Shown one piece after another: positions 17,703-40,586 of a DNA stretch of 64,000 nt (positions are counted from its first letter, which is position 1; the number at the start of each line of letters is the position of its first letter). Under the pieces are notes generated by a model. The model was not told the origin of the DNA. It worked only from the letters and a program-made list of their open reading frames with translations, and made no database searches. Source of the stretch: Pontiella agarivorans (lineage in GTDB: Bacteria > Verrucomicrobiota > Kiritimatiellia > Kiritimatiellales > Pontiellaceae); assembly GCF_034531395.1 (NCBI RefSeq), contig NZ_JARVCO010000012.1, positions 1,054,001 through 1,118,000 of the forward strand, written 5' to 3'. A program made the translations under genes and the position numbers.

Positions 17703-17717
17703 TTCCAGTAATTGGAA
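17703..17717. repeat. Dispersed palindrome TTCC-N7-GGAA
   Basis: TTCCAGTAATTGGAA lies intergenically, 34 bp after the proS stop and 73 bp before the next gene. It is a member of the window-wide family. Confidence 0.65.
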
Positions 17718-17789
17718 GATTCGCCGCTGAATCACTTGTCACGTATTTCCATTGCCCGAAATTCAACCCTGATTTACATTATCCGGATT

Positions 17790-21070: not shown

Positions 21071-21085
21071 TTCCGATCATTGGAA
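21071..21085. repeat. Dispersed palindrome TTCC-N7-GGAA
   Basis: TTCCGATCATTGGAA spans the 3' end of the convergent sulfatase (its stop is at 21077). It is one of the window-wide family. Confidence 0.55.
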
Positions 21086-22594: not shown

Positions 22595-23931
22595 TGGATT
22601 TCATTTCTTAGGTTTTTGACATCAACAAACCGGGTCGCCGGACGTTGGTCCGGTTTGGCGGTTTTCATATTCACATTGCTGAGCACCAGACCGTCGACGT
22701 GGCGGGCATAGATTCCAAAGGCCGGAACGGTGGCGTCGAGGCGGCTGTATTCCGGCCACCAGCCGTCAAGTATGTCCGGGGTCAGTTCCTTCAGTTCATT
22801 GGCGGCATCTGCGGAAGTTCCGCCGCCGCCCGTGGTCATCTGGATATCGCTGAAAACCAGGTCTTTGATCGGATGTCCGGGCATGCCGGTGATGACGATG
22901 GCGGAATCTTTTCCGCAGGTGGAGGAATCGATCCGTATGCCGTCGAATACAAATCCTTTCATTTCTTTCATCGGCTGCAGTTCACCTTTCGGGGTGTCCA
23001 CACAGCAGCGCTGCTGGCCGAACGTCATAAAAACAGGACGGGGCACGTTGCTCATTACCAGGTTGGAGAACGTCATGTTTTTCATCGTCCCGCCTTCGCA
23101 CATCTGTATTTTCAGACCGGCATCCTCGATATCTCTGAAGATGCAGTTGTTCACCGTAACGTTTTCGAAATCGCCCAGGGAGAGCAGCCCGATGCGGATC
23201 CCCGCCCATTTGCTGACGAAGATACAATTGTTGATGACGATATCGCGACAGGCTTTGTCTTTGCGCGAAGCCTGAAGACAAATGGAATCGTCCGAAGTAT
23301 CGAATGTACAGTTGCTGACGCGGACTTTTTCGCAGCCGTCAAAGTCGAGTCCGTCGCCGTTGTTGTTCACCCGGCTGCGAATGGTGATACCATCGACCAC
23401 AATATCCTGACAGTACAGCCAGGCCGAGGTCCATGCGGCCGGATTTTTCAGGGTAAGGTCATGCATCCGGATGTTGGTGCAGTTCATCAGCCGGATCATC
23501 ATGGGCCGTCCGGTTTCCTGATTGAAATTATTCCAGGAGCCGTTGCCGTCGATGGCTCCGCTTCCCTTGAATGCAATGTTGTGGACGCCGCGCGCAAAAA
23601 TCAGGCAACGATCCATGTGCGGCTCGTTTTTGTACATGTTTTTATGCGTGTCAGCAGCAAAGTGCCGAATGTTCGGGCTGGCGATCAGCTTGGAGCCGCC
23701 GGTGATATGAAGGGTCACGTTGTCCTTCATATAGATGGTGCCGATCATATAGCTTCCGGCGGTCACCAGCACTTCGCCACCTCCGCTGGACGACGCTTTG
23801 TTGATGGCTTTCTGTACCGCGGCGGTACAGAGTGTTTTTCCATCACCGACCGCGCCATAGTCACGGATATCATGAACGTAGGCCGATGCGGTCACAGCGG
23901 TTCCCAGCAGAAGGGCGATCAGAAATTTCAT
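22591..23931 (-). CDS. Exported GH28-like right-handed beta-helix protein
   Basis: Starts at ATG 23931 ([20 protein letters not shown], signal peptide), 2 bp after the upstream sulfatase stop; the longer frame to 24039 lies inside that gene. [20 protein letters not shown] is the pectate-lyase/GH28 leader. The helix coils carry [10 protein letters not shown] and DTSDDSICL, equivalents of the polygalacturonase acidic residues. The GHG and RIK motifs of true polygalacturonases are replaced ([20 protein letters not shown]). It is therefore a GH28-related enzyme with a different substrate. It sits between two sulfatases in one operon, implying an attack on a sulfated glycan. Confidence 0.8.
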
Positions 23932-23933
23932 GG

Positions 23934-25589
23934 TTATTCCCATTTCCGGTAGTGTGTTTTCAAATCTTCGTGTGTAACGCGGACCGTGGCCGGCGGCGTG
24001 TTGATATCGCCTTTGGCTTCTGCAACCAGCTCTTTGCATTTTGCCCGCAGTTCTTTCAGCACATCGGCATAGGCCGGATCGTTGATCAGGTTGTTGGCTT
24101 CGTACGGATCTTCCGAGGTTTTGTAGAGTTCTTCGTACACTGCTTTCTCCCCTTTAATCGAGGCCGTGAGCCATTTTGCGTAGAGATCGGCCGATTCCTG
24201 TGAAACCCGATACCAGTCTTTCTGCGGAGTGTTTTCGCGACGCACACGGTTGTCGTTTTTAAAGTAGCGGATGTAGCGGAAATCCTTTGTCCGCACCGTT
24301 TCGCAACGTGGATTGCCGAAGATGGTTGACCAGAGGTTTTCGCCGAAGGCGGCATCGCGCCAGTCGGTTTTTTCGCCGGCGATCAGGGGGGTCATATCTT
24401 TTCCCTGCATGGTTTCCGGTGTTTCGACGCCGGCGATGGAGAGAATGGTCGGGGCAACATCGATGGACTGCACCAGTTCGTCGCAGCGGAATCCGCCTTT
24501 TTTGCGCGGGTCGTAAATCACCATGGGCACCTTCATACAGGTTTCATAGCAAAGTGATTTTCCGCCGAGACCGAATTCGCCGTTGAAGAGGCCGTGGTCG
24601 GAGGCATAAATGATGACGGTGTTTTCGGCGATGCCGAGTTTTTCGAGTGTCTCGCGCATATTACCGACGAGGCGGTCGATGCCGGTGACCGCCTGCATGA
24701 CCCGGATCATGCGTTCACGGGTCTGTGCTTCGTCTTCGACCCAGTTGTAGCCGGTCTGCCGCAGATCCTGCAGCAGCAGATCATTCGGAAGCTTGTTTTC
24801 TTTCAGATCACGTTTGGGAATGTAGTGAGGGGGCAGGGGCAGGGTATCCTGATATTCGCGATAGGCGGTACGGTAGAGCGCATCGTCGGTCGGCTTCATT
24901 TTCATGCTCTGCGTGCTGAAGCCGTGGGGCAGGTTCATGCAGATCGAGAGCATGAAGGGTTTGGATTGATCGCGTTTCTGCAGAAACTGAATGGCATTGC
25001 TCATGAAGGCTTCATTGGATTGCGGATCGAGGAAGGCATCGACGCCTTCGGTAAGGATTTCCGCCTGCGTATCGGATTGGGCGTTGTCGAAAATTTTGTG
25101 GTAGTCCTTCGGATAGAAACCGATGTGGTGATGGCCGGCATACCAGAAGTCGAAGCTGCGGTCCATCAGACCGGTGCGATAGCCTTTGTCGCCGATCGGC
25201 AGGTGATTTTTACCGATATAGCCGGTGAAATATCCGGCATTGCGCACCAGCACCGGATAGGATTTGGCCCAGGCTTCGGCCGACATGGATGTGCCGGAGT
25301 TAAAGTCGATGCCGTGTCTGCGTTCAAACTGGCCGAGCATGTAGCAGGCGCGGCTCGGTGTGCAGATGGCCGTGGTGACAAAGGCGTTGTCAAACACCAC
25401 GCCGTCGGATGCCAGTTGATCCAGATTCGGGGTTTTCCCGATTTTCTGGCCCATAAATCCGACGGAATCCCAGCGCTGGTCATCGGTCAGCAGGAAGATA
25501 ATGTTCGGTTTTTTTTCCGGCATCCGGGCCGCGCCGGCCAAGGCTATAGAACTTACGAGAAGAGCGGAAATAAGCAGTTTATTTTTCAT
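23934..25589 (-). CDS. Exported formylglycine-dependent sulfatase (S1 family)
   Basis: 551 residues with signal peptide MKNKLLISALLVSSIALAGA. Metal site PNIIFLLTDDQRWDS; active-site CTPSR with Cys76. Then GYIGKNHLPIG and the second metal cluster IIYASDHGLFNGEFGLGGKS. The C-terminal half (YELYKTSEDPYEANNL-like ending) is typical of iduronate/choline-type S1 subfamilies. First gene of the reverse operon sulfatase - GH28-like - sulfatase, divergent from another sulfatase at 25854. The substrate is not assignable without subfamily comparison. Confidence 0.92.
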   Translation of the reverse strand: MKNKLLISALLVSSIALAGAARMPEKKPNIIFLLTDDQRWDSVGFMGQKIGKTPNLDQLASDGVVFDNAFVTTAICTPSRACYMLGQFERRHGIDFNSGTSMSAEAWAKSYPVLVRNAGYFTGYIGKNHLPIGDKGYRTGLMDRSFDFWYAGHHHIGFYPKDYHKIFDNAQSDTQAEILTEGVDAFLDPQSNEAFMSNAIQFLQKRDQSKPFMLSICMNLPHGFSTQSMKMKPTDDALYRTAYREYQDTLPLPPHYIPKRDLKENKLPNDLLLQDLRQTGYNWVEDEAQTRERMIRVMQAVTGIDRLVGNMRETLEKLGIAENTVIIYASDHGLFNGEFGLGGKSLCYETCMKVPMVIYDPRKKGGFRCDELVQSIDVAPTILSIAGVETPETMQGKDMTPLIAGEKTDWRDAAFGENLWSTIFGNPRCETVRTKDFRYIRYFKNDNRVRRENTPQKDWYRVSQESADLYAKWLTASIKGEKAVYEELYKTSEDPYEANNLINDPAYADVLKELRAKCKELVAEAKGDINTPPATVRVTHEDLKTHYRKWE

Positions 25590-25810: not shown

Positions 25811-25825
25811 ATGTTTACATTAACA
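25811..25825. promoter_or_regulatory. Candidate LacI-type operator, shared with 35869
   Basis: ATGTTTACATTAACA, an imperfect TGTT/AACA dyad 28 bp before the sulfatase start. The identical 15-mer lies upstream of the GH94 gene at 35869-35883. The shape resembles LacI-family operators. Assignment as an operator is inference. Confidence 0.4.
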
Positions 25826-25853
25826 GACGAATCAGAACCCGGGGATTGGACAC

Positions 25854-27464
25854 ATGATGAACAGAAGGATTTTCACTCGAACCGCCATCGTCAGCGGACT
25901 GCTGGCTTCGAAAGCTGTCGCCGTTTCCAGGGTTCGGAAAAAGCCCAATATTCTGTTTATCATGTCCGACGACCATACGACGCAGGGCTTCGGCTGCTAC
26001 GGATCGCGGCTGGCAAAGTTCAACCCGACGCCGAATATTGATCAGCTGGCCAAAGAGGGCGCGCGTTTTGATTCCGTTTTCTGCACCAACGCCATTTGCA
26101 CACCGAGCCGCGCGTGCATTATGACGGGGCAGTATTCGCAAACCAACGGAGTGCTCGATCTGTCCGGTGCACTTCCGCCGGAGCGACAGTATCTTTCGAT
26201 TGAAATGAAAAAGGCGGGCTATCAGACCGCTATGATCGGTAAGTGGCATCTCAAGGAAGAACCGGCAACGTTTGATTATTACAAAGTTCTGGTCGCGGCG
26301 GGTCAGCAGGGAACTTATTTTGATCCCGAATTCATTGAAACCGGAATGAAATTCGGCAAGCACGGGGCTCCGGGCATTAAGACCGTGAAACATAAAGGGC
26401 ACAGTTCCGATGTGATTACCGATATCTCGCTCGACTGGCTTTCCAACGGCTGGAATAAAGAGCAGCCGTTTTTTCTGATGCATCACTATAAAGCCCCGCA
26501 TGACCTGTTCGAAAATGCGCCGCGTTATGATTCCTGGCTGGAGGATGAACTGATACCCGAACCGGAAAGTCTCTACGATCCGGGCAATCATGGCTCGGAA
26601 GGAACGCGCGGCAAAGATGATGCGCTGATTCACGACATCGGCTCTTCGGTTTCCAAGCGGAATACGATCCGGAATATGGGCATGCACATGAAGATCGATC
26701 CGGATCTGCCGGACCGTGAATACACGCATCAGGCTTATCAGGCCTACCTTAAACGCTACCTTCGCTGTGTGAAAGGGGTGGACGACAACCTGAAGCGGCT
26801 GTTTGATTATCTAAAGAAAAACGATCTGTGGGATAACACCGTCATTTTCTACACCGGCGATCAGGGCTTTTTCCTGGGAGAGCACGATTATATCGATAAA
26901 CGCTGGATGTATGAAGAGGGCATGCGTATGCCGTTCATTATGCGTTATCCCGAAACCGTTAAGCCGGGAACCGTCGTTGATTCGCTGATCAATAATACCG
27001 ATTTTGCGCCGACGATGCTGGAGTATGCCGGTGTGAGAACTCCGGACTACATGCAGGGTCACTCCTTTAAATCGATTGTGGAAACCGGCGTCGAGCCCGA
27101 CGGCTGGCGCGAGGCGACCTATTACCGCTATTGGATGCATATGGCGCACAAACATGCGAATCCGGGACATTTCGGGGTACGCACCAAACGCTATAAACTG
27201 ATCTTTTTCTATGGGGCCGATGTGTATCCCAATGGACGGAAAGACTGGGGTACCCGATCGGAGTGGCGCACGCCGGCGGCGTGGGAACTCTATGATCTGA
27301 AGCAGGATCCGAAAGAGATGAATAACGTTTACGATAATCCGGAATATGCTGAGATTCGGAAAAAGCTGAAGGCAAAACTCAAAACGCTTCGGTCAGAACT
27401 GAACGAAACCGATGCCGACTACCCCCATATTCAGGAGATCATTGACGAACACTGGAACGATTAG
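25854..27464 (+). CDS. Exported formylglycine-dependent sulfatase with Tat-like signal
   Basis: 536 residues. The leader MMNRRIFTRTAIVSGLLASK has an RRxF pattern, suggesting export by the twin-arginine route (inference). Metal site PNILFIMSDDHTTQG; active-site CTPSR with Cys82; GKWHLKEEP; second metal site YTGDQGFFLGEHDYIDKRWM. The long middle insertion and C-terminal DLKQDPKEMNNVYDNPEY are characteristic of S1 sulfatases. It stands alone on the forward strand, ends in a shared terminator facing another sulfatase, and has a candidate operator upstream. Confidence 0.92.
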   Translation: MMNRRIFTRTAIVSGLLASKAVAVSRVRKKPNILFIMSDDHTTQGFGCYGSRLAKFNPTPNIDQLAKEGARFDSVFCTNAICTPSRACIMTGQYSQTNGVLDLSGALPPERQYLSIEMKKAGYQTAMIGKWHLKEEPATFDYYKVLVAAGQQGTYFDPEFIETGMKFGKHGAPGIKTVKHKGHSSDVITDISLDWLSNGWNKEQPFFLMHHYKAPHDLFENAPRYDSWLEDELIPEPESLYDPGNHGSEGTRGKDDALIHDIGSSVSKRNTIRNMGMHMKIDPDLPDREYTHQAYQAYLKRYLRCVKGVDDNLKRLFDYLKKNDLWDNTVIFYTGDQGFFLGEHDYIDKRWMYEEGMRMPFIMRYPETVKPGTVVDSLINNTDFAPTMLEYAGVRTPDYMQGHSFKSIVETGVEPDGWREATYYRYWMHMAHKHANPGHFGVRTKRYKLIFFYGADVYPNGRKDWGTRSEWRTPAAWELYDLKQDPKEMNNVYDNPEYAEIRKKLKAKLKTLRSELNETDADYPHIQEIIDEHWND

Positions 27465-29230: not shown

Positions 29231-30256
29231 CTAATCGAGTCCGACGAGATCGATATTTTTGCGCAGGCGCATCAGCGCATCGATCCAGCGCTGCGGCATG
29301 CGGCCTCGTTTATCCGGCGGACAGTTCAGCAGGAAGTTGACGCCCCGGCCGGTGGTGCCCATATACATGCCAAGCAGATCCTTGTCGGAACGAACGGCAT
29401 CGTCTTCCGCGTAGAACCATTCGCGGCCGATGGTGTCGTTGGTTTCTCCCGGAATGTAATAGTTTTTACCGAGGATTTCCTTCCATTGAAAATAATCCTG
29501 TTTCGCGTGGCCGTTGTAGGCGTTCGGGAAATTGCGTTCCAGCGTCATGATGTCTGACGGCCAGGCAAAGGTGTGATCGAACGTCGTGCCGTTTTGGCAG
29601 GAGTGGTTGTAGGCAAAGAACATTTCCGGTTTTCGCTCGGTAACGCGGTCATAAAATTCAATCCGTTTATCGAGCGGAAGCACTTTGGGCATATCCACCC
29701 AGAAATAATCCGGATTGTAGGTGTCGATCAGTTCATCGCACTGGTTCCACATGAATTCGCGGAAGGCATCATTGGTGGTGGTCATGCCGAGTGCATATTC
29801 GTTCCAGTCTTTCGTCACCGGCATGCCGAACAGGTTGGTGTTATCCCATGCGCAGTAGTAGAAGCCGACTTTGATGCCTTTTTCGCGGCAGGCGTTGACA
29901 TATTCGCCGACGACATCGGTGGTGTTTTTGCTGTTTTTGACGGAGTAGTCGCCATAGGCGCTGGGCCAGAGCGCATGCCCGGCCACATGCTTGGTGGTGA
30001 GGACGGCATACTTCATTCCGGCATCGCGTGCCACGGAAATCCATTCGTCCACATTCAGGTCGGTGGGGTTGTAGGTTTCGATCGGTTCGCAGGCGCTGAG
30101 TTCGAGTCCGTCGAACGTCGACATGCCCCAGTGGATGAACATGCCGTATTTCCACTGCATGAACTCCTGCAGTTTTTCAATGCTCAGGCGCTGTTCGCCT
30201 TCGCCCTCGGCGGATACGGATTTAATATTATTCTGATCGGGAATCGGGTCAGCCAT
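29231..30256 (-). CDS. GH29 alpha-L-fucosidase-like enzyme, cytoplasmic
   Basis: About 341 residues with no signal peptide. ATG 30256 is preferred to 30259 for spacing to GGAG. The GH29 barrel is clear: [48 protein letters not shown], and YFWVDMP carrying the likely nucleophile Asp. The enzyme is shorter than classical fucosidases because it lacks the C-terminal beta-sandwich. In red-algal galactan loci such enzymes can act on L-galactose units; that activity is inference. Last gene of the reverse group GH2 - methyltransferase-like - GH16 - GH29. Confidence 0.88.
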
Positions 30257-30361
30257 CATCTCTCTCCAATGTTCTAAAGTGAGCTGAAATGATTGGAGAA
30301 AACGTAGGTTGAATCCACCGGAAAACGTTGATGTTTTTCAGGAATTTATACAATTCAACGG

Positions 30362-31426
30362 TCAGTTCGATGCCATGACTTTTTCGAGCAGTTCGCGATC
30401 TTCTTTACAAAGCAGTTTGACGGGGACCCGGATTTCTTTGCCGCCCTTTTTCCGGAGGTAGGCATAGCCGTGTTTGGCCTTAACCAGTTTTGCCTTTGTG
30501 GAGCTTTTCCCGTTGGCGGATTTCCATTCGCGCGGTTGCTCTTTCAGTTTTTTAAGTTGCCAGTCGGCCAGGGAGCCGTCGGTTGGAACCAGCACATAGG
30601 CGCGCACCCAATCGATATACGTGGTGTTGCGGGAGGGATCGTTGATTTCCTCCGGCGTCGGCGGCGTTTCCCAGTCGTAGGTTTCGGTCACCATATTGAT
30701 ATGCATCGGATGACGAAAGGGCTCCTCGGTGAGTGTGGTGTCGAATTCAACGGTGCCGACATGTTCGTTGTTCAGATAAAAATGGCACTTCGAGGCATCC
30801 TCCCACCAGCAGCCGTAGACATAAAACGCCTCGTCGGATTTAGTGGGCAGTTCGGCTTTGTTTCCAATGTGATCACTGTCGCCGCCGTGCCAGACATGGG
30901 TGTTGGAGTTCATATAGCGGGCAAATTTTTCGTTTCGCTTTGAACCGCCGACCGTTTCCTGAATATCGAGTTCCTGCGAAATCCTTCCAACCCCCGGATA
31001 ATGCTGGCCTGAATTGCTCATCCAGAACGTGGACGACATGGAAATGCTCGATGCGCGCAAACGGCATTCATAATAACCGAAATAGGCTTCTGTTTTTTTT
31101 GAAACGACGGCCGCGCCGCCCAGAGTGAACTCGCCATGCCTGCTGCTGATCGATTCATCCAGCGTTCCGTTGGTCAGCTGCAGCATACCGTCTTTGACCG
31201 AGACATTTTCCGGCATAAACCGGGCCGGCGGACGTCCCCGCCAGCGCGGATGGTGATCATACCACTTTTCCGAGTTCAGCGCATCGCCGTTGAATTCATC
31301 GGTAAAATCCTCATTGACCACCCACATGAATCCTTTGGGGGCCGGCGGCGGCTCCGCAAACGCTGTGCCGGTGAGAAAAACGCCCAGGGTGGGCAGTTTC
31401 CATAGATTGGAAAAAAGTTTAGTCAT
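30362..31426 (-). CDS. Exported GH16 galactanase-like enzyme with C-terminal SHD1 domain
   Basis: Starts at ATG 31426 (MTKLFSNLWKLPTLGVFLTG, signal peptide); the frame open to 31591 is rejected. The laminarinase-like jellyroll (about residues 25-270) has DEFNGDALNSEKWYDHHPRW and catalytic SQELDIQETVGG (E-x-D-x-x-E). GCWWEDASKCHFYLNNEHVG and INMVTETYDWETP...TYIDWVRAYV resemble beta-agarases and porphyranases. The C-terminal LVKAKHGYAYLRKKGGKEIR and VPVKLLCKEDRELLEKVM resemble the SHD1 (SLA1 homology) module. It would cleave the polymer outside the cell. The substrate among agar, porphyran and carrageenan is not settled. Confidence 0.85.
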   Translation of the reverse strand: MTKLFSNLWKLPTLGVFLTGTAFAEPPPAPKGFMWVVNEDFTDEFNGDALNSEKWYDHHPRWRGRPPARFMPENVSVKDGMLQLTNGTLDESISSRHGEFTLGGAAVVSKKTEAYFGYYECRLRASSISMSSTFWMSNSGQHYPGVGRISQELDIQETVGGSKRNEKFARYMNSNTHVWHGGDSDHIGNKAELPTKSDEAFYVYGCWWEDASKCHFYLNNEHVGTVEFDTTLTEEPFRHPMHINMVTETYDWETPPTPEEINDPSRNTTYIDWVRAYVLVPTDGSLADWQLKKLKEQPREWKSANGKSSTKAKLVKAKHGYAYLRKKGGKEIRVPVKLLCKEDRELLEKVMASN

Positions 31427-31952
31427 TGTGATCGGTCTCAAAGTTGTTTGCTTTGAAACGTTCCTGCGACGGCTTTGTTGGACAGGAAAGGATTCCAATA
31501 TTTTTCGGGCCCTTGAAATTAAAGGTGATCCGCTCGAAAGAAACCTGATGGCGGACATAGTAATCTTCAATGGCCTCCACCAGTTCGTCACGCCCCAGTT
31601 TTTCCTTTGACCAGAAATTGCAGCAGGGAATAACCAGTACGGGTCGGATCAGTGCCGATTCGGCCACGGGCCGCGTAGCTTCATCGCAGTGGAGGCCGAT
31701 AATCAGGTCATAATAATCGGCCATGGACGAAAGATATTCCGCCTCCCGGTTCGGCACGCCCTTCATGGTCCAACCGCGAGGGTCAATCACCTCGGCGTCG
31801 TAATTATAGTGTTTTCGCAATACGCGGCTGAGCATGCCCTGACCGCCGGCCACATCGGCAATATACTGAATGCCGCTGCCGAACCGGTCATAGACAAATT
31901 CCGCCAGCACATCAAACCGCGCAGGATCACCATGAAATTTCTTCCGGCCCAT
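31419..31952 (-). CDS. Methyltransferase-like protein of unknown function
   Basis: 177 residues. IQYIADVAGGQGMLSRVL resembles the SAM-binding loop of class I methyltransferases, followed by the strand AEVIDPRGWTMKGV and DLIIGLHCDEATRPVAE. The conserved-looking VIPCCNFWSKEKLGRDEL is unlike common families. The 3' end overlaps the GH16 start by 8 bp, so it is translationally coupled to a secreted polysaccharidase, an odd partner. Demethylation or methylation of an algal sugar would be speculation. Confidence 0.6.
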   Translation of the reverse strand: MGRKKFHGDPARFDVLAEFVYDRFGSGIQYIADVAGGQGMLSRVLRKHYNYDAEVIDPRGWTMKGVPNREAEYLSSMADYYDLIIGLHCDEATRPVAESALIRPVLVIPCCNFWSKEKLGRDELVEAIEDYYVRHQVSFERITFNFKGPKNIGILSCPTKPSQERFKANNFETDHND

Positions 31953-31999
31953 TTTAACCGTCTCCTTTACGTTTGCCAGGCAGCCCGCCTGGGTTGCGG

Positions 32000-34459
32000 T
32001 TACAGGATGCCATCTACCGGATTCCAGGCAATTTCAATGGGTTCCACTTTTTCGAGGATACCGGGCACATGCGGCGGCTTTTTCCAATGGCTGGAACGCA
32101 GTTCAACTTCTGCGGATTCGAGGCCGTCAGCTTCCGCCCGAAGCACGGCTTTTTCACCGGTCATCTGCACGATGGCCTGGCTCAGGCCGAAAAAGGCGGA
32201 ACTTTCCGTGCCTTTCGGCGGTTCGTGGCTGGTTGGATTGCCGTTGCCGGTTCCCAGAATTCCGGCATCGCCTTCAATCGTGTAGCGGATTTTGTTAGAG
32301 GCGGTGGGGACAAAGCGGCCTTCGGCATCCATGATTTCGGCTTTCACCACAAACGTGCCGTCGGCTTCGGCCGTCAGGCGGATGGCCGCCGGATCGCCGA
32401 CAGTTTCGTTGACCGTCCGTAAAATTTCTTTTCCGTCGGTGTCGTAGCCGATCGCTTCGAGTCTGCCGGGCTGATAGTCGGCCATCGTCTCAAAATAACC
32501 GTTGGTTTCCACGGGTTGGCGGGTGAGCGTTTTTCCGTTTAAAACCAGTTCCACTTCTGCACAGTTGGTGTAGGCGCGGACTTTAATGGGCAGTCCCTCT
32601 TTACCCGCCCAGTTCCAGTGCGGGAAGAGGTGGAGCAGCGGCTCCGTGTTCCACCAGGCTTTGTAGTAGAAATAGGCATCCTTAGGGAAGCCGCACAGAT
32701 CCATCAGGCCAAAGCGGGTGACCGTGGCCGGCCAGTCGAAGGGGTAGGTTTCGCCGCGATAGTCAAAGCCTGTCCAGAGGAAGGTGGCCGCCAGGAAATC
32801 GCGGTCGGCGCAGGCTTTCCAGGTTTGGTCGATGGTGGATCCCCATGGCGTTAGGCCGTTGTTATACGCGCTGGCCATCCCTTTGAGGTGTTCGTTTTCC
32901 CAGCAGATTCCGCCGTGGCCGAAGTCATTCAGTTCCATCGGCTTTCCATTGTAATATTCAGTATCGTACAGCCCACGGGTCGCAAACGATCCGCCGGTTT
33001 CGCTGCCGATGATGGGCCAGTCCGGATAGCGTTCATGGAATTTGTCGTATTGCCCGTCGTCCACGCCGTCGGGGGTGAGGGTATAGTTGGCGCCGAAGAC
33101 ATCGAGATGAAAATTTTCGCTGTCATGAAAACGGGCAATACTGAGCCAGTTGCAGTTCATGGAATATACCGCCGGCCGGGTGGGATCGAGCCGGTGAACC
33201 AGATGCTGCATTTTTTTCAGCTGTTTGATGCCGACGTTGGTGGACTGCACTTTCATTTCTTCATTGCCGAGCGACCACATGATGATTGACGCGTGATTCC
33301 GGTCGCGTTTTATCAGGTCTTCGAGCTGCTGGAGCAGCTCCGGCGAAGAACCCGTAAGCCGCGTTTCGTCCATTACCATGATGCCGAGTCGGTCGCAGAT
33401 GTCGAGCAGCGCCGGGGTGGGCGGATTATGCGCACAGCGCAGTGCGTTGACTCCCATGTTTTTCATCTGAATCATACGCCATTCCTGCAGGGCATCGGGA
33501 ATGGCGGTGCCGACGCCGGCGTGATCCTGATGGTTGCAGATGCCGCGGATTTTCAGGGGTTTTCCGTTGAGGAAAAAGCCTTTTTTTCCATCGAATCGAA
33601 CATCCTTTATTCCGAAGGGAGTGCGGACTTCGTCAACAATTTCACCCTCGATGCGGATGCTGGTGACCAGTGTGTAAAGATACGGATCGTCCGGGTGCCA
33701 GTTCCGGGGATTGGAAAGTTCCAGCGTCTGGAACCCCGTAGCGGTGTTTTCCGCTTCGATTTTCAGGTCGGTTTCGTTGACGATTTCGGCGTGGTCTTCG
33801 GCATTGATGATGGTGGACTGCAGGGAAATGTTCAGGTCGGTGTCGAGATCGTTGCGAACGGCGGTTTCAATCTTCACCATGTTGTTTTCGGTGTGCACAA
33901 AAATGCCGGAATAGGGGACATGTACGGGGTGGGTTTTCACCAGGCGGACATCGCGGTAAATGCCGCCGCCTTCGTAGGACCATAGTTCGGGCAGGTTGGC
34001 ATCGCAGCGAACGGCGATGACGTTGTGTTTTCCATAATTCAGCACGTCGGAGGCATCGATGGGAAAACTGGTGTATCCGCTGAGATGCCGGTGCAGAAAG
34101 TGGCCGTTAATCCAGACTTCGGAATCGCGGAAAATTCCGTCGAATTCAAGCCGGATACGGCGGCCTTCATCGGATGCCGGTACAACGAAGGTTTTACGGT
34201 ACCAGCCGATCCCTTTCTGAATGGAGCCGTGGCCGACTTCGGCGTCGGGCGTAAACGGATTTTCCTGAAGAAAGTCGTGGGGCAGATCGACCGGCTGCCA
34301 GTCGAGATCGTTATAGCCGACTTCGGAGAGGCCGTGGTTTCCGGATTTCATCCAGGCGGGATTGGCATACAGTGTTTCGTGAATGGACTGGAAACCCTGC
34401 TTCTTTACGTCCTGCTGGATAAAGCGCCAGCCGGGGTTCATGGATAAAATTTCTCTCAT
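32000..34459 (-). CDS. GH2 beta-galactosidase-like enzyme, cytoplasmic
   Basis: 819 residues, no signal peptide. N-terminal sugar-binding jellyroll (GIGWYRKTFVVP, IFRDSEVWINGHFL), an immunoglobulin-like domain, then the TIM barrel with GICNHQDHAG, MKNMGVNALRCAHNPPTPAL, acid/base in IMWSLGNEE and nucleophile in PIIGSETGGS. The C-terminal beta-sandwich domains contain VRAYTNCAEVELVLNGKTL. GGAGATAAG precedes ATG 34459. First gene of the reverse catabolic group. Release of beta-linked galactose from oligosaccharides is the likely job; linkage specificity is unknown. Confidence 0.9.
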   Translation of the reverse strand: MREILSMNPGWRFIQQDVKKQGFQSIHETLYANPAWMKSGNHGLSEVGYNDLDWQPVDLPHDFLQENPFTPDAEVGHGSIQKGIGWYRKTFVVPASDEGRRIRLEFDGIFRDSEVWINGHFLHRHLSGYTSFPIDASDVLNYGKHNVIAVRCDANLPELWSYEGGGIYRDVRLVKTHPVHVPYSGIFVHTENNMVKIETAVRNDLDTDLNISLQSTIINAEDHAEIVNETDLKIEAENTATGFQTLELSNPRNWHPDDPYLYTLVTSIRIEGEIVDEVRTPFGIKDVRFDGKKGFFLNGKPLKIRGICNHQDHAGVGTAIPDALQEWRMIQMKNMGVNALRCAHNPPTPALLDICDRLGIMVMDETRLTGSSPELLQQLEDLIKRDRNHASIIMWSLGNEEMKVQSTNVGIKQLKKMQHLVHRLDPTRPAVYSMNCNWLSIARFHDSENFHLDVFGANYTLTPDGVDDGQYDKFHERYPDWPIIGSETGGSFATRGLYDTEYYNGKPMELNDFGHGGICWENEHLKGMASAYNNGLTPWGSTIDQTWKACADRDFLAATFLWTGFDYRGETYPFDWPATVTRFGLMDLCGFPKDAYFYYKAWWNTEPLLHLFPHWNWAGKEGLPIKVRAYTNCAEVELVLNGKTLTRQPVETNGYFETMADYQPGRLEAIGYDTDGKEILRTVNETVGDPAAIRLTAEADGTFVVKAEIMDAEGRFVPTASNKIRYTIEGDAGILGTGNGNPTSHEPPKGTESSAFFGLSQAIVQMTGEKAVLRAEADGLESAEVELRSSHWKKPPHVPGILEKVEPIEIAWNPVDGIL

Positions 34460-34645
34460 ATACTTATCTCCAAAAAATCAGCGCGTTGTTTAACCACGAC
34501 CGAGTGAATAACGCGAAGTTAAAAATATGCACGAATCTCAGGTTTTGATCTGTTTTAAAACGTTTGTTTTCAATGCAAAGGGGCATTGCTTCCCGAAGTT
34601 AGCACTGCGTTGAGTGTTTTTTCATTCAGGTTTCCGGAAAAGCAC

Positions 34646-34682
34646 AAAAAGACCGGATAGGGTTGCCCCGTCCGGTCTTTTT
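34646..34682 (-). terminator. Strong hairpin terminator
   Basis: AAAAAGACCGGA pairs perfectly with TCCGGTCTTTTT around a GC-rich loop. It lies 26 bp beyond the stop of the reverse GH43/117-like gene and is nearly symmetric, so it may act in both directions. Confidence 0.9.
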
Positions 34683-34707
34683 GTTTTTCGGTATGGCCCG
34701 AATCCGT

Positions 34708-35733
34708 TTAGTCGATTTTGAGCACCGCACCGGAGGAGGTGTTGTATTTTCCGCCGACCATGGCGAAGAAGACATAATCCGGTTTTCCGTCTTTCAGCAG
34801 CACCTGGGTGCGCTCAAAACGGCCTTCGCGCTCGATGCCGTTCGGCGGTTCCGGGAGGTATTTGCGCCCTTCGTAAAAGGCCACGGTGGGTTCGCCCCAC
34901 TTGATGCCGTCGTCGGATTCAAACATTAGGCCGTATTCATGATTCCAGTAGCCCATGTCGCGCATGATCATCTTAAATTTACCATCCTCAATCCAGATGT
35001 AGGCATCTTCAGACTGTGCATTTTCACCGAGGTGGCTGAGGTCGATAATCGGTCCGTCGCCGACTTTTTCCCAGGGACCTTCGAGGGAAGTGGCTTTGGC
35101 CAGGCCGTATTGGCGGTTCGTGTGACGTCCGACATCGGCCGTCGCTACGCGCAGTCCGCCTTCGAGGTCTTTTTCCCAGTCGGTGGCGCGCCACGATTTA
35201 TAGTACAGCCAGAGTTCGCCGTTCGGATTCTGTACAAAGGCCGGGTTGGTGGTGCAGACCGAATTCCAGGCATTGGGATCCGGGTCGGGCTCAATCAGCG
35301 GTTTATCCGTGCGTTCCCACGGGCCGTACAGTGAATCCGATGTGGCCATGCCGACGCGTTTGGTGTAAACGGTGCCGTCCTGTGTGCCCATGTAAAAGAG
35401 TACATATTTGTCACCGACTTTATGAATGGTCGGGTTGTGGCAGGTCATGGCGTCCCACCAATCGCCGCCGCGGCCGGTGACGGCAACATCGACCGTTTCA
35501 AATTCGTCTTCCGGAGAATCGGCCACAGCGTGGGCTATTTCGCAGCAGGTGATCCAGCCCTGGTGGGCGGCTTCGTTTTTCCAGCGGCTGTAAAATACGT
35601 GTACTTTTCCGTCGTCGCCCCAGATGGGGGAGCAGCCCCAGATATTGTAGTCGGGATCTTCCAGAATTCGGCCGACAGGCTTCAGGTGTTTCTCAAAATC
35701 CGATGAAATCGGTTCGGTCTGATTCAGTTTCAT
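34708..35733 (-). CDS. GH43/GH117-like beta-propeller glycosidase, paralogue 1
   Basis: 341 residues from ATG 35733, preceded by GGAGAG. No signal peptide. The five-bladed propeller signatures are repeated D-P-x/W-D phrases: PVGRILEDPDYNIWGCSPIW, VHVFYSRWKNEA, CHNPTIHKVGDKYVLFYMGT, NAQSEDAYIWIEDGKFKMIM and EREGRFERTQVL. Acidic residues in DPDYN, EDAY and REGRFE are candidate catalytic groups. The GH117 N-terminal SxAxxR motif is absent, so membership of that family is uncertain. Two close paralogues lie at 38386 and 39528. It is divergent from the GH94 gene. Confidence 0.7.
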   Translation of the reverse strand: MKLNQTEPISSDFEKHLKPVGRILEDPDYNIWGCSPIWGDDGKVHVFYSRWKNEAAHQGWITCCEIAHAVADSPEDEFETVDVAVTGRGGDWWDAMTCHNPTIHKVGDKYVLFYMGTQDGTVYTKRVGMATSDSLYGPWERTDKPLIEPDPDPNAWNSVCTTNPAFVQNPNGELWLYYKSWRATDWEKDLEGGLRVATADVGRHTNRQYGLAKATSLEGPWEKVGDGPIIDLSHLGENAQSEDAYIWIEDGKFKMIMRDMGYWNHEYGLMFESDDGIKWGEPTVAFYEGRKYLPEPPNGIEREGRFERTQVLLKDGKPDYVFFAMVGGKYNTSSGAVLKID

Positions 35734-35868
35734 AATTATTCTCTCCATTGCGTAAATTGATCTCCAAGAGACTGCTCTGCCCCTCTTCCGTCATTTTTTA
35801 CTGTTATGCTTAACATAATCACTAAAAAACTATAGACAAGTTCCGGCATATCCTGCATAACCTCTAGG

Positions 35869-35884
35869 ATGTTTACATTAACAT
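35869..35884. promoter_or_regulatory. Candidate operator, dyad ATGTT-N6-AACAT
   Basis: ATGTTTACATTAACAT has 5-bp dyad arms and shares its first 15 bases exactly with 25811-25825. It lies 70 bp before the GH94 start, in a 220-bp divergent region that also holds the dyad TTATGCTTAACATAA (near 35810). A LacI-type repressor is a reasonable guess. Confidence 0.4.
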
Positions 35885-35953
35885 GAAGCGTCAATATGGG
35901 CAGGGGTTGCTCATGTTGTCCAGCGAATTTATAACGAATAATTGGGAATTTAT

Positions 35954-38383
35954 ATGAACGATAACAACGTATACGCATTTAATGATGAGGAGAAGTCAAT
36001 CCGCATAAACCGCAGCGATCTTCCGACGCCGTGGATTAACTATCTTTCAAACGGTCGTTTGCATGCTTTTGTGTCGCAGGCGGGGGGCGGTATGGCTTGG
36101 TGGAAAAGCCCGATCACCTATCGGATGACGCACTATCGCTATCAGAATGTGCCGATGGACGGTCCGGGTTTTTATACCTATGTGCGCGAAAAAGACGGCA
36201 CCACCTGGTCGCCGACCTTCCGTCCGTGTGAGACTCCGCTCGACGACTGGTATGCCGAGCATCACGCCGGCTGGTCAAAATTTGTCGGCACCAAAAACGG
36301 GGTAACCGCCACGCTGAAGCTGTTCTGCGCAATGGACACGGATGCACTTTGCTATGATCTGGAAATTAAAAACGATTCCGGGGAGGAAAAGGAACTCGAC
36401 CTCTTTGCCTATGCCGATCTCGCCCAGCTGGAGTGGACCACCGACCTGTTCTACGGCTACTACATTCAGTCGCAGGTGACCACGTTCTATGATGAAGATA
36501 TGGATGCCGTTATCTATCGCTATCAGCACACGCCGCAACCGTTTGTGGAGGATGTTCCGCTGATCTGGATGGCGGCCGACCGCAAAATGGACTCCTGGTC
36601 CGGCGATCGCGAAAAGTTCCTCGGCCCATACCGCTGGGAACAGAATCCGATCGGTGTCGAAAAGGGGCACTGCGGTAATGATACCATCGAGTGCGGACAT
36701 CCCTGCACGGCCGGACAGGTCAGCGTTACCGTCAAACCGGGCGAAACCGAACGGGTGGTATTCACACTCGGCGTGGCCCCGGGCGGCCTGATCAAACACA
36801 AAGAGACGATGGCCAATATTAAACAGGATTTGGAAACCTTCCGGTCTCTGGAAAAAATCGACGGCCAGTTCCAGGCCTTGGAAAACTGGTGGAGTAATCA
36901 CCTCAGTAAATTTGACTGTGAAATTCCGAACAAGGATATCCAGCGTCAGATCAATATCTGGAGCCCGATCCAAACCGTGCATAACGGTCGTTATTCGCGC
37001 TCCACCTCCTGGCATGCGCCGGGCTACCGCGGATTCGGTTATCGCGATACCGCCACTGATATGGTCGGCGTAGCCTACCGCGATCCGAAGTGGGCGACGG
37101 ATATGTGCCTCTATCTGCTTTCACAGCAGTTTGAAGACGGGCATGCCCTGCACACCTGCTATCCGGAGGACGGTCCGGCGATGTCGCGCGGGGCCTCCAA
37201 GCATGCCGATGACCATTTGTGGATGCCGATGGTGGTTTATGCGATTCTCTCGGAAACCGGCGATTACAGCCTGCTCGAAAAGGATGTGCCGTGGCTGTCG
37301 GAGGAGGACAACTGGACCACGTATGGTTCCGCAACCGTCTGGGAACATCTGATGCGCGGGGTGGATTTCACCGAAAACAACCTCGGGGAAAAAGGCTTCC
37401 CGCTGACGTTTGACGGCGACTGGAATGATATTATCCTGCGGTTCTCGCGTGCCGGTAAAGGCGAGTCGATTTTCTGCGGCCAGCAGTATGTGATTATTCT
37501 GCGCCAGATGATCGAAATCGGTAAAGCAGCCGGAAAGCCGCAGAAGGATCTGGACCGCTTGCAGGATTGTCTCAGCCGTATGGTGAAGAATCTTGAGGAT
37601 CATGCGTGGGACGGCGAATACTGGCGCCGGGGCTATACCGATGAGGGTGATATCGTCGGTACCAAAGAGGCGGAATACGGAAAAATTTTCATCAATCCGC
37701 AATCCTGGTCGGTCTGGGCCGGTGTGGGTACTGAAGAGCAAAACAACAGCGGTATGGATAATGCGATCAAATATACCGCAACCGACTTCGGCCTGCGCCT
37801 GGTTCATCCGGGCTTTAAAACCTACCCGCACGATCCCGATCCGTTTACCGGTTACAATCCGGGCTGTGCGGAAAACGGCGCGGTTTTCTGTCAGGCCAAC
37901 GGCTGGGTGATTATCGCGCTGTCGAAACTGGGCCGCGCGGAAGATGCCTGGAAGATTTTCGGCGATATGATTCCGCATACGGCGCTGAACAACATCGGTC
38001 TCGAACGCTATGAAGCGGAGCCGTATGCCTATGTTTCCAACATCATCGGACCGGAAAACAAACGTCATGGCTGGGCGAATGTTACGCAGGTGACCGGAAC
38101 AGCGGCGTGGATGGACCTGGTGGGTACTCAGTATCTGCTCGGTGTGCGCCCGGGACTCCGGGGACTGGAAATCGATCCGTGCATTCCGGCGGACTGGAAA
38201 AGCTATAGCGTCACCCGCGAATATCGCGGCCGTACCTACATAATTTCTGTTGCAAATCCGGACGGTGTCGTGAAGGGCGTGAAGTCCGTGACAGTGAACG
38301 GTGTGGAAATTGAAGGCAACATCATCGACCCGGCTACGGTAAGCGGCGGGGAAGTGGTTGTTGAGGTTGTAATGGGGGAATAG
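35954..38383 (+). CDS. GH94-type glycoside phosphorylase
   Basis: Cytoplasmic inverting phosphorylase of the cellobiose phosphorylase family, 809 residues (in-frame upstream start at 35942 not used). The N-terminal beta-sandwich has GRLHAFVSQAGGGMAWWKSP and YRYQNVPMDGPGFYTYVRE. The (alpha/alpha)6 barrel has SWHAPGYRGFGYRDTATDMV and the family-defining FDGDWNDI with the catalytic acid Asp. The C-terminal WANVTQVTGTAAWMDLVGTQ and LRGLEIDPCIPADW are typical of GH94. It is followed after 2 bp by a GH43/117-like gene, so oligosaccharides may be cleaved by phosphorolysis. Substrate unknown. Confidence 0.88.
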   Translation: MNDNNVYAFNDEEKSIRINRSDLPTPWINYLSNGRLHAFVSQAGGGMAWWKSPITYRMTHYRYQNVPMDGPGFYTYVREKDGTTWSPTFRPCETPLDDWYAEHHAGWSKFVGTKNGVTATLKLFCAMDTDALCYDLEIKNDSGEEKELDLFAYADLAQLEWTTDLFYGYYIQSQVTTFYDEDMDAVIYRYQHTPQPFVEDVPLIWMAADRKMDSWSGDREKFLGPYRWEQNPIGVEKGHCGNDTIECGHPCTAGQVSVTVKPGETERVVFTLGVAPGGLIKHKETMANIKQDLETFRSLEKIDGQFQALENWWSNHLSKFDCEIPNKDIQRQINIWSPIQTVHNGRYSRSTSWHAPGYRGFGYRDTATDMVGVAYRDPKWATDMCLYLLSQQFEDGHALHTCYPEDGPAMSRGASKHADDHLWMPMVVYAILSETGDYSLLEKDVPWLSEEDNWTTYGSATVWEHLMRGVDFTENNLGEKGFPLTFDGDWNDIILRFSRAGKGESIFCGQQYVIILRQMIEIGKAAGKPQKDLDRLQDCLSRMVKNLEDHAWDGEYWRRGYTDEGDIVGTKEAEYGKIFINPQSWSVWAGVGTEEQNNSGMDNAIKYTATDFGLRLVHPGFKTYPHDPDPFTGYNPGCAENGAVFCQANGWVIIALSKLGRAEDAWKIFGDMIPHTALNNIGLERYEAEPYAYVSNIIGPENKRHGWANVTQVTGTAAWMDLVGTQYLLGVRPGLRGLEIDPCIPADWKSYSVTREYRGRTYIISVANPDGVVKGVKSVTVNGVEIEGNIIDPATVSGGEVVVEVVMGE

Positions 38384-38385
38384 AT

Positions 38386-39429
38386 ATGACAAGTGCTACG
38401 GCAAACAAAATCAACGCTAAGCCGGAAGTGGAATCGGATTTCTGCAGAAATCTGACCGGTGTCGGCCGGATCCTTGAAAGTCCGGATTATAATATCTGGG
38501 GCTGTTCGCCGATCTACGGTCCGGACGGGAAAATCCATGTGTTCTATTCGCGCTGGCTCAATGAAGCCGATCATGACGGCTGGCTGACGTGCTGCGAGAT
38601 TGCGCATGCCGTCGCAGACGATCCGGCCGGACCGTATGAAACCGTCGGCGTGGCCGTGGCCCCGCGCGGCGGCGACTGGTGGGATTCCGGCAGTTGCCAC
38701 AATCCGACCATTCATAAAGTGGGCGATAAATATGTCCTGTTCTATCTGGGGGTCTCCGACGGCACCGTTTACACGAAGCGGGTCGGTATGGCGACGGCGG
38801 ATTCGCTGGATGGGCCGTGGGAAAGATCACCGGAGCCGATTATCAAACCGGATCCGGATCCCCGGGCCTGGAATTCAATGTGCACGACCAATCCGGCTTT
38901 TCTTAAAGTGTCCGATGATGAGCTGCGTCTTTATTACAAGACGTGGTGTATTGCCGACTGGGAGCAGGATATTGAGCTGGCGAATGAACTGGGCACCTGG
39001 ACCGGCGAGAATACCAACCGTCAATATGGACTCACGATTGCAAAATCGCTGGACGGACCCTGGGTGAAGCAGGGAGACGGACCGATGATCAACCTGAAAT
39101 ATGTTGGCGAAAATGCCCAGAGCGAAGATGCCTACATCTGGATGGAGGATGGTCTGATTAAAATGATTATGCGCGATATGGGCTACTGGAACCATGAATA
39201 CGGTCTCTATTTTGAGTCGGAGGATGGGGTGCGCTGGTCTGATCCTCAGATCGCCTACCGCAATTCGCATGAATATTTTGATGAGGATGCCAATGGACTT
39301 GATCGTGAAGGACGGTTTGAACGGCCGCAGCTTCTGATGGGTAAGGACGGTCATCCGGAATACCTGTTCTGTGCTTTTCGCGGTGGGAAATACAACACCT
39401 CTTCGGGGGTCGTTCTGAAGATCGGATAA
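38386..39429 (+). CDS. GH43/GH117-like beta-propeller glycosidase, paralogue 2
   Basis: 347 residues, ATG 2 bp after the GH94 stop with GGGGGAAT as ribosome site, so the two are co-translated. It shares the family frame TGVGRILESPDYNIWGCSPI, HVFYSRWLNEADHDGW, CHNPTIHKVGDKYVLFYLGV, NAQSEDAYIWMEDGLIKMIM and DREGRFERPQLL with paralogue 1. No signal peptide, so it acts on imported oligosaccharides. The family is related to GH43/GH117; reaction and substrate are inferred only. A terminator follows. Confidence 0.7.
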   Translation: MTSATANKINAKPEVESDFCRNLTGVGRILESPDYNIWGCSPIYGPDGKIHVFYSRWLNEADHDGWLTCCEIAHAVADDPAGPYETVGVAVAPRGGDWWDSGSCHNPTIHKVGDKYVLFYLGVSDGTVYTKRVGMATADSLDGPWERSPEPIIKPDPDPRAWNSMCTTNPAFLKVSDDELRLYYKTWCIADWEQDIELANELGTWTGENTNRQYGLTIAKSLDGPWVKQGDGPMINLKYVGENAQSEDAYIWMEDGLIKMIMRDMGYWNHEYGLYFESEDGVRWSDPQIAYRNSHEYFDEDANGLDREGRFERPQLLMGKDGHPEYLFCAFRGGKYNTSSGVVLKIG

Positions 39430-39474
39430 ACGTTTCAGTACAGCCGTTGATCGCTTTTAACGGATGAGTTTTTC

Positions 39475-39507
39475 CAGTCCCGCTTTTTCGGCGGGGCTGT
39501 TTTTTTA
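39475..39507 (+). terminator. Rho-independent terminator between paralogues 2 and 3
   Basis: CAGTCCCGC, loop TTTTTCG, GCGGGGCTG, then T7. It separates the GH94 unit from the next paralogue; read-through is possible. Confidence 0.85.
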
Positions 39508-39527
39508 GATGCAGGAGAGGTGTGGCG

Positions 39528-40586
39528 ATGTCAGAAAAAGAACTGTTTAACCGGGAAGAGAAAATTTCGGAGTTTGCGGGAAAGCTCAGCCCGGTGGGAA
39601 GAATTCTTGAGGATCCGGATTATAACGTCTGGTGCTGCTCACCCATCTATGATGATCAAGGCCGGGTGCATGTCTTTTATTCCAAATGGCTGAACGCGTA
39701 CGACCATCTTGGTTGGGTGGCGGCCTGCGAGGTCGGCCATGCGGTGGCGGATTCTCCGGAAGGACCGTACACCGATCTGGGAACGGTGCTGAAGGGGGAG
39801 CGTGACGATTCCTGGGACTCGTGGTCCATTCATAATCCGACCGTCTATAAAGTGGATGGTCGGTATGTCATGCTTTATATGGGATCCAGCGGAGCAGCCC
39901 TTGATGTCTCGCTGGATGAAATCATGGAAATGGACAGCGATGAATATGCACCGTATTTCCAGGCACTGGTTGAAACCAAACGCGTCGGTATGGCGGTGGC
40001 GAACAGCTTGGACGGCCCGTGGGAACGGGTGGGGGATCAGCCGATGGTTGATGTCGGGGCACCGGGGTCATGGGATGATATGGTGACCAGTAATCCGGCT
40101 TTTGTGCAGCACGAAGACGGGCGTTATTGGCTTTATTATAAAGGCTGGGATTATGCGACGCTTCCAACCGGAGGAAACCGGCGCTACGGTGTTGCCATGG
40201 CGGATAACCTCACTGGGCCCTATACCAAATTTGAGGGGAATCCGATTGTCGATTATTCCCTGATCGATATCCGTGTGCAGTGCGAGGACGGCTATGTCTG
40301 GCGGGAAGACGGGCAGTATCATATGATCCTGCGCGACATGGGCTTCTATAACCATGAATACGGACTGATTATTCATTCCGACGACGGAATCAGCTGGAGC
40401 GAGCCCGAGATCGCTTACAAAGAGGCGGTGCATTATTTTGATGAAGCTCCCAATGGACTTGATCGTGAAGGCCGCTTTGAACGCCCTCAGTTGCTGATTA
40501 AAGACGGGAAACCCGAATATCTTTTCTGTGCCTTCCGCGGCGGAAAATACAATACCTCCTCTGCGGTGGTGCTGAAAATCGATTGA
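39528..40586 (+). CDS. GH43/GH117-like beta-propeller glycosidase, paralogue 3
   Basis: 352 residues from ATG 39528 with AGGAGAGG upstream; a GTG two codons earlier is rejected. It carries the shared core SPVGRILEDPDYNVWCCSPI, HVFYSKWLNAYDHLGW and DREGRFERPQLLIKDGKPEY. It has an extra acidic insertion after the second blade (SLDEIMEMDSDEYAPYFQAL), absent from the other two paralogues, which may reshape the active site. Separated from paralogue 2 by a terminator, so it may be regulated independently. Confidence 0.7.
   Translation: MSEKELFNREEKISEFAGKLSPVGRILEDPDYNVWCCSPIYDDQGRVHVFYSKWLNAYDHLGWVAACEVGHAVADSPEGPYTDLGTVLKGERDDSWDSWSIHNPTVYKVDGRYVMLYMGSSGAALDVSLDEIMEMDSDEYAPYFQALVETKRVGMAVANSLDGPWERVGDQPMVDVGAPGSWDDMVTSNPAFVQHEDGRYWLYYKGWDYATLPTGGNRRYGVAMADNLTGPYTKFEGNPIVDYSLIDIRVQCEDGYVWREDGQYHMILRDMGFYNHEYGLIIHSDDGISWSEPEIAYKEAVHYFDEAPNGLDREGRFERPQLLIKDGKPEYLFCAFRGGKYNTSSAVVLKID

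Follow-up and report, generated by a model that had tools for sequence, protein, structure and literature searches.

Does an anaerobic degrader of red-algal galactans split part of its substrate by phosphorolysis? A gene cluster of Pontiella agarivorans NLcol2T (Kiritimatiellota), an anaerobe able to use agar, agarose, carrageenan and dried Porphyra for growth (PMC10880615), raises this question, because a gene for a GH94 phosphorylase-type enzyme lies there among genes for galactan-degrading enzymes. The main text of the paper on this strain mentions neither GH94 nor a phosphorylase (PMC10880615). The window analyzed here is a stretch of 64,000 nucleotides of contig NZ_JARVCO010000012.1, to which all positions refer, and genome-wide searches covered the host genome (12 contigs, 4,436,865 bases). 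In our reading, which we trust about as much as we doubt it, the GH94 protein would be a cytoplasmic phosphorylase of desulfated porphyran or agaro-oligosaccharides that releases galactose-1-phosphate (Gal-1-P), with substrate, phosphorolysis and product all predicted. Its link to porphyran is drawn from the genomic context and a shared operator-like site, and galactose is proposed as the donor because of this context together with changed residues. We put forward more tentatively, doubting it slightly more than we trust it, that a Kiritimatiellota GH94 subfamily switched its donor from glucose to D-galactose and would free alpha-D-Gal-1-P from the non-reducing end of beta-1,4-D-Gal-L-(anhydro)galactose; this would be the first natural galactosyl GH94 and the first phosphorolytic step in the degradation of a red-algal galactan. 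The genes and sites at the center of the locus are:

35942–38383 (+): GH94 phosphorylase-type enzyme, likely ATG at 35954; PF17167 (6e-101) and PF06165 (1.4e-57)
34708–35748 (−): propA, GH117-like five-bladed propeller, likely start at 35733; AlphaFold2 model
38386–39429 (+): propB, GH117-like propeller, 67% identical to propA, starting 2 bp past the GH94 stop
39522–40586 (+): propC, GH117-like propeller, likely ATG at 39528; PDB 3r4y (4e-12)
35869–35884 (−): candidate LacI-type palindromic operator in the divergent promoter region of propA and GH94, ATGTTAATGTAAACAT; present without mismatch at this position in 7/7 genomes
25811–25826 (−): second copy of the palindrome, CTGTTAATGTAAACAT, with 1 mismatch; the first ATG of the S1_11-type sulfatase gene follows after 27 bp

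A class-wide search recovered orthologues of this GH94 with 82–96% identity in six further Pontiella genomes, and the next relatives fall to 49%. All seven genomes keep the order propA(−)|GH94(+)-propB(+) with a GH16 gene within ~7 kb, and this recurrence places the grouping beyond chance. GH2 lies at the cassette in 6/7 genomes, and propC stands beside it in the window and in genome G141 only; P. sulfatireligans F21 is among the named records. When 28 Pontiella genomes were compared, GH16 orthologues were present in nine and GH94 in seven of these nine, compared with none of the 19 others (Fisher p = 3e-5, with kinship between the genomes ignored). No porphyranase or GH117-like gene was recognized beside the outgroup GH94 genes of ~49% identity (G026, G053, G314, G435, G472 and G495).

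The gap between propA and GH94, aligned across all seven genomes, contains a conserved 16-bp LacI-type palindrome, ATGTTAMWGTAAACAT. Within the window alone, two matches at ≤3 mismatches are unremarkable, this number being reached by 15 of 100 shuffles. At ≤1 mismatch there are four sites in the whole 4.4 Mb genome, two of them at the porphyran locus. In G141 the palindrome occurs without mismatches at the same place before the S1_11-type gene, and G157 carries a further copy ahead of an MFS_2 sugar transporter. Because the palindrome is shared with the L-galactose-6-sulfatase gene, GH94 appears to be part of the porphyran regulon. Orthologues of a LacI-family regulator (78–100%) were found in 7/7 cassette genomes, near propB in four (that of the host at G000 C12:957039–958055), and we infer that the palindrome is bound by this LacI-type protein and mediates regulation by it. 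Two more near-copies of the palindrome (ATGTTAMAGAAAACAT) occur at locus L102 (G000 C2:522847 and 523273), ahead of a 1084-aa protein without a Pfam match. A preliminary description of positions 29231–40586 had counted GH94 as a member of a red-algal galactan locus, and both the conserved synteny in seven genomes and the shared operator-like site support that view.

Which galactan is concerned can be read from the enzymes to the left of the cassette:

21077–22594 (−): S1_a, exported S1 sulfatase; PF00884 (3e-45), signal-like N-terminus, CSPTR motif
22591–23931 (−): exported GH28-type beta-helix enzyme, uncertain link to porphyran; PF00295 (1.1e-23), signal-like N-terminus
23934–25589 (−): S1_b, exported S1 sulfatase; PF00884; top solved relatives 6hr5 (1e-66), then 7lha (1.2e-50)
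25854–27464 (+): exo-L-galactose-6-sulfatase homologue, S1_11 type; PDB 7lha (1.1e-187) and 7snj (4e-185); PF00884
27524–29155 (−): S1_c, exported S1 sulfatase; PF00884 (2e-56), CAPSR motif
29231–30259 (−): GH29, without signal-like N-terminus; PF01120 (4e-42)
30362–31591 (−): beta-porphyranase-type GH16 with C-terminal SHD1, likely start at 31426, signal peptide; PDB 4awd (1.2e-65)
32000–34459 (−): GH2 beta-galactosidase, without signal-like N-terminus; NF041462 'beta-galactosidase GalA' (934 bits, cut-off 900)
16149–17669, 17712–18926 and 18868–20970: prolyl-tRNA synthetase and two open reading frames (ORFs), the three genes left of the locus; orthologues next to GH16 in genome G108

Thus delimited, the locus spans ~21.1–40.6 kb, which is wider than the interval considered before, and comprises four S1 sulfatases, the GH28-type protein, GH29, GH16, GH2, three GH117-like propellers and GH94. 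The genes that the preliminary description had named (GH16, GH2, GH29, sulfatases, GH94 and three propellers) lie at or very near the places it had assigned to them, and the S1_11-type sulfatase gene sits just beyond its interval. Its assignment to a red-algal galactan can now be narrowed to porphyran on account of the beta-porphyranase-type GH16 and the exo-L-galactose-6-sulfatase homologue. By sequence similarity, a GH16 beta-porphyranase, an exo-L-galactose-6-sulfatase, a GH29 and a GH2 are encoded together, and the locus is, with activities predicted, a porphyran (agar-type galactan) utilization locus. The PDB matches of GH16 are the beta-porphyranases 4awd (the best), 3juu and 4ate, and its catalytic motif ELDIQE is present; this similarity makes a preference for laminarin, which would have spoken against a galactan locus, unlikely. 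In this protein, Pfam detects nothing but the C-terminal SHD1 domain (30362–30550), and SHD1 at the C-terminus is, to our knowledge, unusual for a porphyranase. The S1_11-type homologue is the predicted porphyran desulfation step; it is divergent from S1_b, with the operator-like site between the two genes. GH29 is a candidate cytoplasmic alpha-L-galactosidase, only distantly similar to the solved exo-alpha-L-galactosidase 7ljj (2.8e-8). The GH28-type gene is placed between two sulfatase genes and is kept in G141.

Signal-like N-termini were judged by the best 11-residue hydropathy, not by a signal-peptide predictor. The values of GH16, the GH28-type protein and all four sulfatases (1.65–2.65) denote a hydrophobic N-terminus, which GH29, GH2, propA, GH94, propB and propC do not possess (0.15–0.80). 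Since the latter enzymes, unlike GH16 and the sulfatases, have no signal-like N-termini, GH94, GH2, GH29 and the propellers are probably cytoplasmic, and the pattern fits an exported endo-enzyme with exported sulfatases and the remaining enzymes acting in the cytoplasm. The preliminary description had noted the lack of SusC/D, the tandem pair of Bacteroidota-type utilization loci. No match to SusC/SusD or a TonB receptor was found among the ORFs scanned, which covered 16.1–49.8 kb of the window. In G108 (locus L125), which lacks the GH94 cassette, the orthologue of the GH16 porphyranase directly adjoins orthologues of the three left-hand genes of the window. This arrangement suggests that gain or loss of the cassette took place at a stable chromosomal position.

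All three propellers are paralogues of one another, as had been noticed before (propA is 67% identical to propB and 48% to propC), and are ~20% identical to solved GH117s. The AlphaFold2 model of propA (confidence score pLDDT 83.6) has the five-bladed propeller fold of GH117: its nine top structural matches all belong to this family (Z 28.6–29.7, root mean square deviation 2.8–3.5), the nearest being 4ak5 (Z 29.7, deviation 3.0, 285 residues aligned), and a profile match to 5ta7 was also obtained (E = 1.8e-12). The His-Glu pair of neoagarobiose hydrolase (BpGH117 H302-E303) was not clearly recognizable in propA, propB or propC, where the local alignment is uncertain; in this uncertain stretch the segment matching NSGHE...W reads QSEDAYIW in propA and propB and QCEDGYVW in propC. 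Two propA paralogues of ~69% identity are encoded elsewhere in the host genome, one adjoining a GH16-like gene and a GH2, the other a porphyranase-domain protein, a GH2 and an MFS_2 transporter, and therefore this type of propeller goes with agar- or porphyran-type genes in the host. The closest plasmid-borne relative of propA (40%), on a Catenovulum plasmid, has a GH2 as its neighbor and a GH16 not far away; it was rejected as support for porphyran, as that GH16 is not porphyranase-like. In G114, G151 and G157 the propA frame is open upstream into a lipoprotein-like signal (e.g. MNRIVSTIFLSFMCVLTSC). In the window the upstream frame is closed (35733–35942), and the internal ATG has a ribosome-binding site, GGAGAGA, in front of it; the location of propA may differ between species.

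GH94 itself has both domains of its family, the supersandwich (PF06165, residues 28–277) and the (alpha/alpha)6 catalytic domain (PF17167, residues 316–734), and among solved structures it is most closely related to cellobiose and chitobiose phosphorylases. The catalytic acid D496 (CtCBP D483) and the motifs RSTSW, YRD, DWND, AEN and TGTAAW are kept (residues numbered in the 813-aa frame). In a comparison with 23 other GH94s, 98 columns were ≥95% invariant in the latter, and eight of these are changed and fixed in all seven Pontiella proteins. R64H, Q372T (in RDxxQD) and H651Q (FCH to FCQ) occur in 7/7 Pontiella proteins and in none of the 23; five additional relatives at ~49% retain R, Q and H, which places the origin of the changes on the Pontiella branch. 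The residue that corresponds to N667 of Cellulomonas uda cellobiose phosphorylase in the −1 site is Ala, and the loop bearing T508 is absent. The double exchange T508I/N667A converts cellobiose phosphorylase into a lactose phosphorylase producing Gal-1-P (PMC4336185). We rejected this Ala as a lone marker of galactose, as it is common at that position in GH94 and therefore permits, and does not prove, a galactose donor. An inserted catalytic loop of cellobiose phosphorylase (N495–E509) closes subsites +2/+3 (PMC7471185); in all seven orthologues ~16 CtCBP residues after DWND are without counterpart, an absence also seen in many other aligned GH94s.

Taken together, the following route would be conceivable. 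The exported GH16 would cut porphyran into oligosaccharides whose non-reducing end is L-galactose-6-sulfate, and the exported S1_11-type sulfatase would then take off the 6-sulfate. The oligosaccharides would then enter the cytoplasm, possibly through a GPH/MFS_2 sugar symporter (a presumed transporter), where GH29 would remove L-galactose and the GH117-like propellers an alpha-linked anhydro-L-galactose or similar unit. On the beta-1,4-D-galactosyl bond thus exposed at the non-reducing end, GH94 would act with phosphate to yield alpha-D-galactose-1-phosphate and a shortened chain, and GH2 would make the hydrolytic version of the same cut.

Several observations weigh against such a role of GH94. 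Since the locus also encodes a GH2 beta-galactosidase for this beta-D-galactosyl bond, the phosphorolytic step is not strictly needed. The reviewed characterized natural GH94s all release glucose-1-phosphate (Glc-1-P) or N-acetylglucosamine-1-phosphate (GlcNAc-1-P) (PMC8950772), and our searches of the open-license literature turned up neither a natural galactosyl GH94 nor a GH94 described from a locus for agar or porphyran, which is not proof of absence. The known −1 contacts to glucose (R, D, W, the acid D and E) are unchanged, and no pocket geometry favoring galactose was obtained; the AlphaFold model of GH94 (five sequences) reached a pLDDT of 44 and was not used. The His at the sulfate/phosphate site (CtCBP H653, CgCBP H666), usual in the family though not established as a defining residue and present in 23/23 other GH94s, is Gln in 7/7 Pontiella proteins, and this exchange could weaken phosphorolysis. 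This His contacts sulfate in VpChBP, but not the phosphate in the Glc-1-P complex of LpSOGP, which is held by Tyr and Ser (PMC5309861); therefore, the protein still belongs to GH94 by its fold and core motifs, and the claim of phosphorolysis is weakened. Finally, D-cellobiose and lactose both support growth of the strain (PMC10880615), no other GH94 above the cut-off and no GH3 were found in the host genome (GH1 and other beta-glucosidase families were outside this search), and because of this GH94 could serve cellobiose.

The last point, the kinship to cellobiose and chitobiose phosphorylases and the retained −1 contacts are what one would expect if GH94 were a glucosyl phosphorylase for cellobiose, cellodextrin or another red-algal beta-glucan fragment that was put under the porphyran regulon, with cell-wall glucans being used together with the galactan. 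We consider this unlikely, though worth keeping in view, since positions that are invariant in 23 other GH94s, CtCBP included, are altered, no cellulase or glucanase was recognized in the conserved part of the locus, and G114, G151, G157 and G177 possess the cassette in addition to extra GH94 genes of a ~34% group (whose residues were unchecked). The possibility raised in the preliminary description, that the protein is an ordinary cellobiose phosphorylase, has thus lost ground through the altered invariant residues, but retains some through growth on cellobiose and the lack of a second GH94 or a GH3. The joint alteration of several otherwise invariant positions would also agree with a phosphorylase for another galactan-related donor, such as 6-O-methyl-D-galactose, which occurs in porphyran (PMC12316285), or another substituted porphyran hexose, and such a division of labor would account for the retention of both GH2 and GH94. 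We regard this as rather improbable: in cellodextrin phosphorylase the main chain holds the 6-OH of the −1 sugar within a buried site (PMC5667895), where a methyl group would have little space, and there is no sign of an enlarged pocket. The His-to-Gln exchange in all seven orthologues, at a position contacting sulfate or phosphate in several GH94 structures, might instead mean that the protein has ceased to be a phosphorylase and turned into a hydrolase or transglycosidase, or into an inactive protein with a binding or regulatory role. This seems quite improbable, as GH94 enzymes are described exclusively as phosphorylases (PMC5309861), LpSOGP binds the phosphate of Glc-1-P without this His, conservation extends to the acid Asp, the RSTSW Arg and the TGT motif, and an interspecies identity of 82–96% indicates constraint.

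If GH94 does release Gal-1-P as we propose, this product would join the galactose route past the kinase step, provided that this route runs via Gal-1-P. The strain ferments galactose (PMC10880615), and a canonical GalT (PF01087) was not found in the host genome; therefore, another galactose route must exist. A GalK-domain match and a gene of the PF01704 (UDPGP) family are present. The latter family, absent from 14/14 control genomes, is represented at locus L145 (G000 C10:629106) by a 608-aa frame, and its product is a candidate Gal-1-P uridylyltransferase.

Cytoplasmic phosphorolysis of beta-galactosides, which the preliminary description had considered new, is not new in general, as GH112 enzymes perform it (PMC8950772); the novel element would be GH94-based phosphorolysis of a red-algal galactan. 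The described agar and porphyran pathways are hydrolytic at the beta-D-galactose step (PMC12316285, PMC5849685). Phosphorolysis would save ATP per galactose, which would be relevant to an anaerobic fermenter such as Pontiella, would widen the donors of GH94 from glucosyl and GlcNAc to galactosyl, and would provide an enzyme for the synthesis of agaro- or porphyran-type oligosaccharides from Gal-1-P. With the conserved operator-like site and a cassette shared by seven genomes, the hypothesis is directly testable in the cultured type strain.

Among known systems, the closest counterpart is the porphyran polysaccharide utilization locus of Bacteroides plebeius (GH16/GH86 porphyranases, S1_11, GH29, GH2C), in whose exo-cycle the S1_11 sulfatase is followed by GH29 and then by the GH2 beta-galactosidase (PMC12316285). 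The Pontiella locus shares with it a GH16 of the BpGH16B (4awd) type, an S1_11-type sulfatase, GH29 and GH2, but differs in having no SusC/SusD among the scanned ORFs, in a GH29 that is smaller, devoid of a signal and distantly similar to BpGH29, in GH117-like genes that form a conserved trio with GH94, and in a LacI-type operator; the word phosphorylase is absent from the B. plebeius paper (PMC12316285). The agarose pathway of Bacteroides uniformis NP1 (GH16B/GH86, GH117B, GH2C), with its alternating exo-removal of the alpha-L unit by GH117 and of beta-D-Gal by GH2 (PMC5849685), serves as the template for the cytoplasmic part of the route suggested for Pontiella. Its beta-D-Gal step, however, is purely hydrolytic (PMC5849685), and the Pontiella propellers are distant from solved GH117s and have no recognizable NSGHE segment. 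With cellobiose and cellodextrin phosphorylases, the Pontiella GH94 has in common the full two-domain architecture and the catalytic Asp, Arg-Asp, Trp, Glu and TGT motifs, whereas the invariant R, Q and H are changed, the catalytic loop is shorter than in cellobiose phosphorylases, the context is galactan and not glucan, and the predicted donor is galactose. A functional analogue would be GH112, whose D-galactosyl-beta-1,4-L-rhamnose and galacto-N-biose phosphorylases release Gal-1-P from beta-D-galactosides, although this (beta/alpha)8 family is unrelated to GH94 and acts on different substrates.

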